Source: Cryomorphaceae bacterium
GTDB taxonomy: Bacteria > Bacteroidota > Bacteroidia > Flavobacteriales_D > Parvicellaceae
NCBI GenBank assembly: GCA_905182525.1
Contig: CAJJBV010000002.1
Coordinates: 1 to 64,000 of the forward strand
Direction of reading: 5' to 3'
DNA length: 64,000 nucleotides
Below, one piece after another: positions 12,859 through 35,831 of this stretch (the stretch's first letter is position 1; every line of letters begins with the position of its first letter). Made by a program: the position numbers and the translations under genes. The notes under the pieces were generated by a model. The model ran no database searches. It saw only the letters and a list, made by a program, of their open reading frames with translations, and was not told where the DNA came from.

Positions 12859-13756
12859 ATGAATTTACCCCAAAAATTAAAACTTAACGATGAGGTTATT
12901 ATAATAGCTCCAGCTAGAAAAGTAGAATTAGAATCTCTAGAATTTGCTGAAAAATTATTATTAAAATGGGGGTTGAAGCCTGTAAGATCTAAAAATTTAA
13001 TGTGCAATTCTGGGATTTTTGCAGGAACTGAGATGGAAAGAAAGCAAGACCTTCAATGGGCACTGAGACCATAAATCTGCAAAAGCTATTTGGTGCTTTA
13101 GAGGAGGATATGGCTCCATACAATTATTAAAAGAACTAAACCCAGCTAATTTTTTAATTAATCCTAAGTGGATTATTGGATTTTCTGATATTACTAATAT
13201 CCACTGTTTTTCAAATATTATTTTAAATACTGCTTCCGTTCATGCAACTATGCCTATTAATGTTTCAAAAAATACTCCTACTACATTAGATTCCCTAAAA
13301 AAATTCCTTTTCAAACAGGAAATAAACTATAAAATTAAATCTTCAACCGATAATATAAGCGGAAATGTAAAAGCTCCTTTAGTTGGCGGAAATCTTTCAA
13401 TTTTAACTTCATCTTTAGGAACCAACTACCAACCTGATTTTGAAAATAAAATTCTATTTATAGAAGATATAGATGAATATTTATATAAAATTGATAGAAT
13501 GATTTGGCAATTAAAATTTGCTGGTGTTTTTCATCAAATTAAGGGGCTTATTATAGGACATTTTACCAACATAAAAGATAATTCTACAGCTTTTGGAATG
13601 AGTATTGAAGAAATAATACTCCAAAAGGTTAAAGAGTTTGATTTTCCAGTAATATTCAACTTTCCTTGTGGACATGAAAATGAAAATTTAACTTTGCCAT
13701 TTGGTATTGAAATGAATTTAAAAGTAAATTCCAAAACAGCTGAACTTTACAATTAA
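12859..13756 (+). pseudogene. LD-carboxypeptidase (peptidase S66), frameshifted
   Basis: Muramoyl-tetrapeptide LD-carboxypeptidase family (S66), which removes the terminal D-alanine of murein tetrapeptides during recycling. The N-terminal part (KLNDEVIIIAPARKVE) reads in one frame to about 13062. From about 13073 the protein continues in the next frame with AIWCFRGGYGSIQLL and the nucleophile motif IIGFSDIT, and ends with the family's C-terminal PFGIEMNL region. One extra base (a G in GCACTGAGACC) explains the break, since removing it gives ALDHKSAKAIW. Total length would be about 298 residues, normal for the family. It is the first gene of a five-gene plus-strand cluster. Confidence 0.85.
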
Positions 13757-24845: not shown

Positions 24846-25875
24846 ATGAAAGCTATCCAGCTAATTAAATACGGGTCATCTAAAGATTCATTTTTATCGA
24901 AGAATGTACCATTACCAATTTTGAGTAAATAAAGATGATGTACTTATAAAAGTGCATGCATTCGGAATTAATTTTGCAGATATAATGGCTCGAAAAGGCC
25001 TTTATAAAGCATCTCCAGCACTTCCTGCTGTTCTAGGATATGAAGTTGTTGGAATTGTAGAAAAAACTAAAAATCCTCAATACAAAAATTTAATTGGGAA
25101 AAGAGTATTAGCATTGACAAGATTTGGTGGTTATGCAGAATATGCAGTTACAAGTGCATTAGCCTTGATTGAAATACCAAATACCTTAAAAAATGGCATA
25201 GCTCTAGCATTAGCTACGCAGTACTGTACTGCTTTGTTAGCATTAAAAAAAACTTCTTTACAAAAAGATGATTTAGTATTAATTCATTCAGCATCTGGTG
25301 GAGTTGGAACCGCTTTAACCCAGCTTGTAAAACAAAAAGGTTGTAAAATAATTGGACTAACAAGATCTGAATCTAAAATACCTTACTTGAAAAGTAATGG
25401 AGTTGATTTTCCAATTGACACTTCAAAAAAAGATTATAAACTACAAATTCAACAAATATTTCCAAACCAAAAAATTACATCAATTTTTAATTCTGTTGGC
25501 GGAAAAACATTTAAAAAAGACATTCAGTTATTAGAAAATGGTGGAACTTTAGTATTCTTTGGTATTTCTGATAGAATAAATCAAAAGAAAGGGCTTTTCC
25601 AAACACTATTGCAAATGCTGAAAATTGGAAAAATTCATCCAGCACTTCTTATTTTGAAATCACAAACCATTGTAGGATTAAATCTTTTAGAAATAGCTGA
25701 TAAAAAACCTCAACAACTTTTAGAGGCATTAAAAGAGTTAGTTACTTTACAAAATAGTAATGTTATAAAACCTATTGCTTTCAACAAATTTACTTGGGAA
25801 GAAATTTCAAAAGCCCATTATGGAATGGAAAATGCTCAATTTACAGGGAAAACGTATATTAATATTATAGATTAA
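24846..25875 (+). pseudogene. Quinone oxidoreductase-like zinc-type alcohol dehydrogenase, frameshifted
   Basis: Medium-chain dehydrogenase/reductase of the quinone-oxidoreductase type, NADPH-dependent. The first 28 codons from ATG 24846 (MKAIQLIKYGSSKDSFLSKN) end at a stop near 24930. The protein continues one frame over with DDVLIKVHAFGINFADIMARKG, the standard family sequence. One extra A in the AAATAAA stretch explains it, since the repaired reading is PILSNKDDVLIKV. The nucleotide-binding motif HSASGGVGTALTQL follows. It has no structural zinc cysteines. The frame after the shift runs unbroken to the SCO gene and overlaps it by one base. Confidence 0.82.
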
Positions 25876-31025: not shown

Positions 31026-32115
31026 CTAATATTTAACCACATTAATTCTCTTTATAACATCGCTATAAGAAACTTTAAGTAAGTAAATCCCTCTTGGATA
31101 ATCTTCGATATTTAAACTTCTACTATTAGTTGAGCGTATAAATTTACCAGTAAAATCATAAAGCTGTAAATTAATTTCACCAGCATAATTATCTAATTTT
31201 ATATTGACAATATTATTAGTTGGATTAGGAAAAACAGTCAGGCTAGATGATTTATTTACAATAACACCATTAAGACTGTTAAAACAATCGGATGAATAGT
31301 TGCAATTCTCACTAAAAAAATGATTGGAATCAAAATAAAAATTAGAATTATTTATCCAATTTGTATTTGAATATGAAGAGTCATCTACTTCAATACAAGT
31401 AAGGTTAGAATTTCCTTGAGCAAAAACCCTTGTGATGATTAGTATTATTATCATTTTTTAAGTTTAAACAAGACAAAAAATTAGAATCAAGATAAATCAC
31501 TTCTAATAAAGAATTATTACTTAAATCAATACTTGTAAGATAATTATTAAAACACCAAAATGTTTTTAATGCTATATTCTGAATTACATCTAAGCTATCT
31601 ATGAAGTTGTCATCTAAATAGAGATATTCAAGTTTTGTACTACTTCTTAAGTCTATATTTTCTATAAAATTATAGTTTAAATACAGTGTTTGAAGATTTA
31701 CACAACTACTTAAATCCACATTTTCTATGAAGTTGGTATCTAAATCTAAATATTCAAGAGCTATACAATTACTTAAATCAATAGTATCTATTAAGTTATC
31801 AGAACAAAGAAGTTTTTTTAGAGTAGTATTATTAGAAAAATCTAAAGTTGATAGAAAATTATTGTGACAGTCAAGGTATTGTAGACTTGTAAAATCTTCT
31901 ATTCCAGTTAAATCTGAAATAAAATCATTAAAAATAATAAGTGAATCAACTGTACTAATACTAGCAGTAGTTACTGAATCATTGTCAGCTATACCGTCTC
32001 CCATACCATAAGATTCTAATAAATCTTCAAAAGTGTCATCCGGAACGTAAGTTTTTTGTTGTCCTTTGGTTGAAATTCCGATTATTATTGTGATTGTGAA
32101 TATTAAATATTTCAT
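31026..32115 (-). pseudogene. Leucine-rich repeat protein with type A T9SS sorting domain, frameshifted
   Basis: Exported surface protein: signal peptide (MKYLIFTITIIIGISTKGQ), then about eight leucine-rich repeats of 21 residues (for example LDLDTNFIENVDLSSCVNLQ), and a C-terminal T9SS type A domain (SLTVFPNPTNNIVNIKL...GIYLLKVSYSD). The frame breaks near 31437, where one extra G in AAGGGTTTTT separates CLNLKNDNNTNHH from AQGNSNLTCIEVDDSSYS; these two parts are contiguous in relatives. The downstream frame can start at an ATG giving MIIILIITRVFAQG, which mimics a signal peptide but is a by-product of the shift. Repaired length is about 363 residues. Role unknown, probably adhesion or binding at the surface. 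Confidence 0.82.
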
Positions 32116-33470: not shown

Positions 33471-33515
33471 GTTTATTTGTAATAATTATTTTAATATTTA
33501 GTTAGTTTGTATAAT

Positions 33516-35831
33516 ATGAAAAGGATTTTATATACTTTACTTTTTTTAAATCAATTTATTTCATTAATAAATGCACAAGATTTTTCCGTTGGAACTTGGA
33601 GAGATCATTTGCCATATTCAAAGTTTACTCAAGTGGCTTCAGTTGGGAGATATAATCTATGCTGCAACTCAATTTTCATTAGTAGAATTTGATAACTCTA
33701 CCAATGAGATAACGAAATTAAGTACTGTAAATGGATTAAGTGAAATTGGTATTACCTGTATTAGTGCTAATAAATCTCAAAATGCCTTATTAGTTGCTTA
33801 TAATTCTAGCAATATGGACCTAATTAAAAATAGTGAAATTATTAATATTTCTTCCATTATTAACAGCTCCATAATTGGAGATAAAACCATTTACAATCTT
33901 TATAGTCATAGTAAATATATATATGTATGTACAGGCTTTGGAATAGTAGTTGTGGACCTCGATAAAGAAGAAATTAAAGACACTTATATAATTGGAGCTT
34001 TAAGTTCTCAACTAAAAGTAAAAGACATTCATATTTCTAATGATACAATATATGCTTTGACAGAAGATGAAATAAAGTATGCACCTTTAAATAATGGTTT
34101 TTTATCCAACTCCAGTGTATGGAGTTCGCATGATTTGCCAAATGGTTCTCAGATTGATCAACTAGAATCTTTTGGAAATGATTTTTTTGCTTTTGGAAGC
34201 TCTAAAACAATTTTTAAATACTCTAATAATCAATGGGATACTTTAATTTATCAACCAAATGAAAGTCTTAGAAATTTTAAAGTAATCAACCAAGATTTAA
34301 TTATTTGCTCACTAAATTCTATTGAAATTTATGATCAAAACTTACAGCTCCTAAATGAATTTTTTGCTTATGATGCAACTACATACATGTCCCCTAACGA
34401 TATTATTAAAGAGGATGGATATTACTGGATAGCGGACAATAAAAAAGGGTTTAATAGATTTTCTGAAAATTGGGAATCTGATCCAATTGTTAATGGTGGA
34501 CCTTTTTCAAATGATTGTTTTCATCTTGTCATCAAAGGGAGATCAATTATATGTTGCTTCTGGAAGAACAGATGGAACTAATTGGAATAAAACATATAAT
34601 ACGAATGGAATTTATCGATTTAAAAGTTCTTGGACTACCTACAACCGAACTACTAACTCCATTATGCAACAAGAAATAGATACAATTTCTGATATTGTTT
34701 GGGTAACGCCAAACCCTAGTGATCCAAATAAATTTGTTGCCTCGTCTTGGTCTGGAGGACTACTTTCTTTTAATAATAATGATCTAGAAGAAAGATTTAC
34801 ATTTCATAATTCTTCACTCCAAACTAGAATTGGCGGAAATGGTTATTTTGTTTTTGCTGGTGCAACAAGTTTTGATAATAAGGGGAAACTTATGGGTTTC
34901 AAATTCTTTTACTTCATCTCCTTTATCAGTTAAAACTCTTGACGGTAGTTGGAAATCCTTTTATTGCGGAGGGGTAGCAACTAACAAGTTATGTACGGAT
35001 CTAATTATAGATGAACAATACGGATTCATATGGATGGCAATAAAATCAGTTGGAATTTTAGTATATGACTTTAATCAAACTCCCCTCGATGAATCGGATG
35101 ATCAATATAAAATTATTGGCAGCGGCAGTGGAACAGGATCATTACCAAGTACTTTTGTAAATACTTTAGCAATAGATAGAGATGGAGAAATATGGATTGG
35201 AACGGATCAAGGCCCAGTAATATTTTACAGCTCATACCCCATTATGAATGAACCAACTTATGATGCGCAAAAAATATTGATAGAACAAGATGGAACCTTA
35301 CAATACCTATTAGAAAACGAAAGAATAACAGACATTGAAATTGATGGAGCTAATAGAAAATGGATTTCAACTGATGGAGGAGGAGTATTTTTACTATCTG
35401 AAGAAGGTACACAAACTATATATTCTTTCTCAAAAAATAATAGCCCACTTTACAGCGACGTAATAAATTCTTTGGCCATTAATGACAATACTGGTGAAGT
35501 TTACATGGGATCTCCAGATGGGATTATAGGGTTTAAATCTACTGCCACCTCGTCAAATATTCAGTTTAAAACTTTGGAAGTTTTTCCAAATCCAGTTAGA
35601 CCAGAATATCAAGGAAATATTGCCGTAAGAGGGATGATGAATAATTCAGAGGTTAAAATTGTTAACGCAAGTGGATTCCCAGTTAAAACAGTTTTTTCTA
35701 ACGGAGGCCAGGCAATTTGGGACGGATTAGACAATAACAATCAACAAGTAGGAAGTGGCGTTTATTACTTTTTAGCAACTTCAGAAGATGGGTATTCAAA
35801 GGCTAAATCAAAGGTTCTTATAATAAGATAG
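33516..35831 (+). pseudogene. porZ: PorZ-like type IX secretion protein, frameshifted
   Basis: Type IX secretion component with two-bladed propeller domains; PorZ is part of the cell-surface attachment complex that anchors T9SS cargo to A-LPS. Signal peptide MKRILYTLLFLNQFISLINA, then the diagnostic SVGTWRDHLPY, propeller repeats (IYAATQFSLVEFD, DGEIWIGTDQGPVIF, RKWISTDGGGVFLL), and a C-terminal region EVFPNPVRPEYQGNIAVRG with a FlgD-like fold. Three frame changes split it: an extra G in GGG at 33644-33646, one extra base near 34528, and an extra G in GGGG at 34882-34885. Each repaired junction gives continuous family sequence. ATG 33516 is preferred over an upstream TTG. Repaired length about 771 residues, typical for PorZ. 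Confidence 0.87.

Follow-up and report, generated by a model that had tools for sequence, protein, structure and literature searches.

The PorZ gene (33516-35831, + strand) appears in the assembly as four open frames with three successive +1 steps between them, and this triple break is most likely not a real feature of the organism. PorZ is most likely produced in living cells as one intact protein of ~770 residues. The breaks can, with good probability, be attributed to consensus errors of an assembly in which two strains were collapsed, both the strain mixture and the software step being what we infer from the sequence. Breaks of the same kind are not confined to PorZ, and most of them carry a signature at synonymous third codon positions.

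The PorZ locus

The window analysed is a stretch of 64,000 nucleotides (C2:1-64000) of a 2.19 Mb genome in six contigs, estimated as 96% complete. Within it, the first PorZ frame (33507..33692, with an ATG at 33516) is followed, each time in the next (+1) frame, by a second (33571..34581), a third (34487..34933) and a fourth one (34830..35831), which carries the C-terminus, all on the + strand. In a whole-genome profile search, the 757 positions of the PorZ profile NF052228 were matched by three consecutive pieces, 40-330, 320-445 (the third frame) and 441-757, situated at 33640-34548, 34517-34894 and 34881-35828; the pieces in successive frames thus span profile positions 40-757, and form a single chain only after read-through. 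The whole-genome hit of PorZ reaches 315 bits, compared to 578 bits for an intact congener copy, and part of the fourth frame alone (34983-35828, 292 bits) passes the curated cut-off of 260 bits; five further matches in the genome score at most 34 bits. Additionally, the second frame contains a match to the N-terminal PorZ β-propeller (PorZ_N_b_propeller, PF21544; 33655-34122, 104 bits).

The open frames together with the profile pieces confirm the three gained bases, all in one direction, that had been proposed in the initial annotation of this DNA. The first break is ambiguous in position and can be placed anywhere within ~33636-33650 (+), a stretch containing a GGG at 33645-33647, to which the initial annotation had assigned both the extra base and the coordinates 33644-33646. 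The second one, expected near 34528, was located at 34524..34528 (+), at CAT-CTT-G, with three references. Eight references place the third one at 34880..34888 (+), at AAGGGGAAA, where the GGGG does lie at 34882-34885 as had been described.

Among ten congeners, the N-terminal PorZ model was matched in nine, eight of which encode PorZ in a single uninterrupted frame of 745-778 aa. The match in the remaining one, G007 (266 aa), is cut short where its 8.2 kb contig ends, and no match to this model was obtained in G008, a genome 83% complete. Apart from the contig-end piece, no split PorZ was found in these ten congeners. The nearest named relatives, seven with 71-78% identity for the last part of the gene, come from marine metagenome-assembled genomes of Flavobacteriales, Crocinitomicaceae and “MED-G20”. 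What PorZ does is known from Porphyromonas gingivalis, for which A-LPS binding and interaction with PorU are reported (PMC8545088); both proteins fall in the same NCBIfam equivalog family, the marine copy by its sequence.

Once read through, PorZ shows no stop in 770 residues. Against 14 outgroup copies it has a mean identity of 0.356, and the ten entries taken from seven congener genomes have 0.348-0.354. Being free of stops and no more diverged than the congener copies, it does not have the look of a decaying gene. In a quick tree, its terminal branch (0.246) is the longest in the genus, followed by 0.173 and 0.163, the remaining terminal branches being shortened by duplicate entries; a modest speed-up of PorZ evolution is therefore conceivable. 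The relaxed selection, stops and deletions expected of a pseudogene were not found in PorZ. In-frame stop positions amounted to 21 in 341 genes covered in this genome; seven of them were well aligned on both sides, and three of these seven had a reference of at least 130 aa, a filter also applied to the shifts described below. Two of these three stops (19918 and 25862) lie 5' of the open frame of their gene. The third one (L054:6491) is a TAG with both flanks well aligned, as compared with a congener open reading frame of 154 aa.

Distribution of +1 breaks across the genome

Congener proteins were aligned with a purpose-written frameshift-aware aligner onto the window and onto 38 further 20-kb stretches sampled from this genome (824 kb in total, of which 351 kb and 341 genes were covered). 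After filtering by identity on both sides and by reference length, 40 of 56 shifts were kept and 16 were dropped. The well-supported shifts in these 351 kb comprise 35 of +1, four of -1 and one of +2, while the identical filter gave one +1, two -1 and one +2 in 350 kb of congener G003, and one +1, one -1 and one +2 in 416 kb of congener G005. The five shifts of other directions in this genome are located at L091:13920, L093:16921, L094:14221, L098:15952 and L066:15697.

Within the window, congener protein alignments place +1 breaks at 13066 (+) in an LD-carboxypeptidase-like gene (12859-13756) and at 24927 (+) in a quinone-oxidoreductase-like gene (to 25875). Housekeeping genes are broken too, including TamL, GcvT and RecG, which are over the profile cut-off, as well as genes whose best matches, to tRNA CCA transferase and cysteine synthase, lie under it. 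The +1 events are clustered, with 10 neighbouring pairs at a distance of at most 1.5 kb vs 4.1 expected, a number reached in 0.55% of placements. Genes with references at least 85% identical showed two events in 25.0k aa, vs 33 in 92.1k aa for the other genes (P 0.012).

Two regions can be mentioned separately. Eight +1 breaks occur in 20 kb at G000:C4:10036-30368 (stretches L064 and L065), in a TonB-like gene (a label of our own, with no NCBIfam match), a glutamate-dehydrogenase-like gene (two), GldJ, PorU (three) and RecG. At G000:C3:35404-42387 (L062 and L063), gldK has two breaks and gldN one, and another small gene nearby is also broken.

A further indication is obtained without reference proteins. 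The ends of secreted proteins can be recognised by type A sorting tails (TIGR04183), for which 81 matches were found in this genome (2.2 Mb), vs 84 in G003 and 66 in G005. The median length of the frames bearing them is 329 aa, vs 556 aa (G003) and 610 aa (G005), and 33 of the 81 are shorter than 250 aa, vs 13 of 150 in the two congeners together. A tail frame was considered joined when it overlapped an upstream open frame of at least 200 nt. By this measure, 12 of the 29 tail frames in the sampled stretches join by +1 and one by another step, some of the 12 being breaks already counted, e.g., in PorU. Of 53 tail frames in the stretches of G003 and G005 that were covered, two join by +1 and nine by the other step, as overlapping neighbour genes would, in a count that excludes frames less than 150 nt from a stretch end, which are included for this genome. 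In the window, this approach located a +1 break at 31404..31460 (-), in a leucine-rich-repeat protein (31026-32115) that carries a type A sorting tail.

Sequence context of the breaks

Homopolymers are rarer at the breaks than expected by chance from simulated insertions. In just two of the 35 events do all the candidate bases lie in runs of two or more, vs 18-21% for simulated random insertions and 43% for neighbour duplications; a repeat of the count with multiple references gave 2/32, vs 23% for random insertions. Among 2- to 5-mers and gapped pairs near the sites, no slippery motif survives the number of tests, the most over-represented codons being AGA (11 vs ~4) and AAG (8 vs ~2). A slippery site GGG-AGA shared by the breaks was also considered, and dropped after the second PorZ break was placed at CTT-GTC.

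The signature found consists of a codon XYN1 followed by N2, with XYN1 and XYN2 being synonymous, such as TAC/TAT, GAT/GAC, AAG/AAA or GGG/GGA. This idea is post hoc, as it was formed while reading the contexts and then tested against simulations on the same events. Placement against local references was possible for 32 of the 35 events (25 of the 32 with a single reference), and the pair is present in 20, 25, 27, 28 and 29 of these at tolerances of 0, 1, 2, 3 and 4, respectively. Across the same tolerances, the simulated frequency is 35-54% with random insertion (P 0.0014 to 1.5e-6) and 38-57% when the inserted base differs from both its neighbours (P 0.0043 to 1.1e-5). At tolerance 2, the 27/32 compares with 42.7% for random insertions (P ~1.5e-6), 46.5% for a base unlike its neighbours (P ~1.1e-5), 50.7% for insertion at codon boundaries, 57% for any third-position pair and 95.2% for a silent SNP written twice. 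With a single reference for each of the 35 events, the pair is seen in 21 at tolerance 0 (simulations 36-39%), in 27 at tolerance 2 (42-46%) and in 30 at tolerance 4 (53-57%).

At 27/32, the observed share falls short of the 95% that silent SNPs on their own would give (P 0.018), which means that part of the events must come from pairs of another kind or from different errors. Transitions make up 13 of 27 by best pair, with no excess over the ~53% in simulations, and 11 of the 17 events in which a single pair is possible, a figure with no matched control; the transition share thus lends no added support to an interpretation as alleles. In PorZ itself, the second break (CTT/CTG or CAT/CAC) and the third one (GGG/GGA) show the synonymous pair, while the first has none within tolerance, GGG/GGA being possible there at a cost.

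Type IX secretion genes

Sixteen of the 35 events lie in the type IX machine or its cargo: PorZ (3), PorU (3), GldK (2), GldN (1), GldJ (1) and tail-bearing genes (6), where the sorting tail of the L126 reference is our own reading. On the other hand, the SprA frame is open over 2472 aa, and the best PorV match is found in a frame of 416 aa, which makes a loss of the type IX system unlikely. The conflict that the initial annotation had pointed out between a broken PorZ and an otherwise intact system is therefore real, with SprA and PorV open and 81 sorting-tail matches in the genome.

The enrichment of breaks in type IX genes is no more than suggestive. With independent TIGR04183 sites and weighting by length, 3 of 9 tail genes are broken vs 23 of 332 genes (P 0.06), in a test that omits PorZ, which has no TIGR04183 match, and one broken gene of L086, where the alignment stops short of the tail. 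A first tail test (6/11 vs 20/330, Fisher P 4e-5) was discarded as biased, since it ignored gene length and its profile had been built on six tails, five of which belong to the six broken genes.

Origin of the breaks

The assembled population would be a mixture of two or more strains that are close relatives. The assembler or polisher would, at certain silent SNPs, put the two alleles in separate columns and write both bases, and each doubled site would add one base, so that the frame steps by +1. Silent-SNP alleles written side by side would account for the direction of the breaks and their phase with respect to the codon, and also for homopolymers being absent, stops rare and breaks few in highly conserved genes. 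A related phenomenon has been described in the collapsed assembly of Trypanosoma brucei Lister 427, where nearby allelic variants misaligned in the consensus are reported to have led to false indels and truncated open reading frames (PMC8445201); in that diploid eukaryote a phased assembly provides the proof, whereas a bacterial population is deduced here from codon statistics alone. Literature searches on the artefact found no description of the synonymous-pair signature, which is not proof of its being unpublished.

Other origins have to be weighed against these collapsed alleles. Ordinary sequencing error left in the consensus, from insertion-prone reads at locally low coverage and with no strain variants, is an unlikely source, even if the +1 bias, the spread over the sampled genome, the clustering and a PorZ without stops would all fit it: random insertions do not produce the excess of synonymous pairs. 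Furthermore, long-read errors are described in published work as mainly homopolymer indels, mostly false deletions (PMC12007338), whereas homopolymers are rarer than chance at the breaks reported here. Recognition of broken open reading frames by means of relatives is common to that work, to the ORF-interruption score (PMC9426551) and to the present one, but the errors described there are mainly homopolymer-linked, with deletions as the commonest class, while those found here are insertions, mostly outside homopolymers and at synonymous third positions. A real recent loss, with the lineage losing PorZ and other type IX genes by frameshift, could explain why 16 of 35 events fall in the machine or in tail-bearing genes; it is improbable in view of the insertion bias (35 to 5), the mere three filtered in-frame stops, two of them 5' of an open frame, the constraint on PorZ, the open SprA and PorV, the unrelated housekeeping genes also broken and a length-weighted tail enrichment of P 0.06.

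Programmed or suppressed +1 frameshifting at the break codons would be in line with the common direction of the three PorZ breaks and with the AGA and AAG codons near the sites, but we regard it as highly improbable, as no motif survives the number of tests, the congeners have PorZ in one frame, and codon-boundary insertion predicts 51% of synonymous pairs vs the 84% seen. If GGGA is taken for a four-letter glycine codon, all three PorZ breaks are bridged; this reading was rejected, since it also shifts at the fourth and fifth GGGA and runs into stops. Equally far-fetched is a contingency device in which the extra bases are real and the type IX genes and cargo of one export pathway are read by +1 recoding at codon boundaries. 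The initial annotation had left the choice between base-calling error in the consensus, rightly included as one option, and phase variation by G-run slippage. The latter, for which the first and third PorZ breaks at or near GGG and GGGG might speak, hardly deserves any weight: a switch would call for a long simple-sequence tract, and runs of 3 and 4 G are short for slippage; the second break has no G run, two of the 35 events are confined to runs of at least two bases, and +1 breaks are spread over the sampled genome, for the most part outside homopolymers and at synonymous third-position pairs.

Implications

If the breaks are alleles written side by side, neither phase variation nor loss of secretion need be assumed, and the false story of a broken or phase-variable secretion system is removed. 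Genomes with such a +1 pattern would yield false pseudogenes, and the artefact can be checked for cheaply by looking for an excess of +1 breaks in which the extra base adjoins a synonymous third codon base. If the enrichment in type IX genes holds, it is likely because these genes differ more among strains. We put forward only tentatively, as a rather doubtful possibility, that the artefact points to real hot spots of strain diversity, located in the secretion machine and the cargo. The broken genes may be those most variable within the population.
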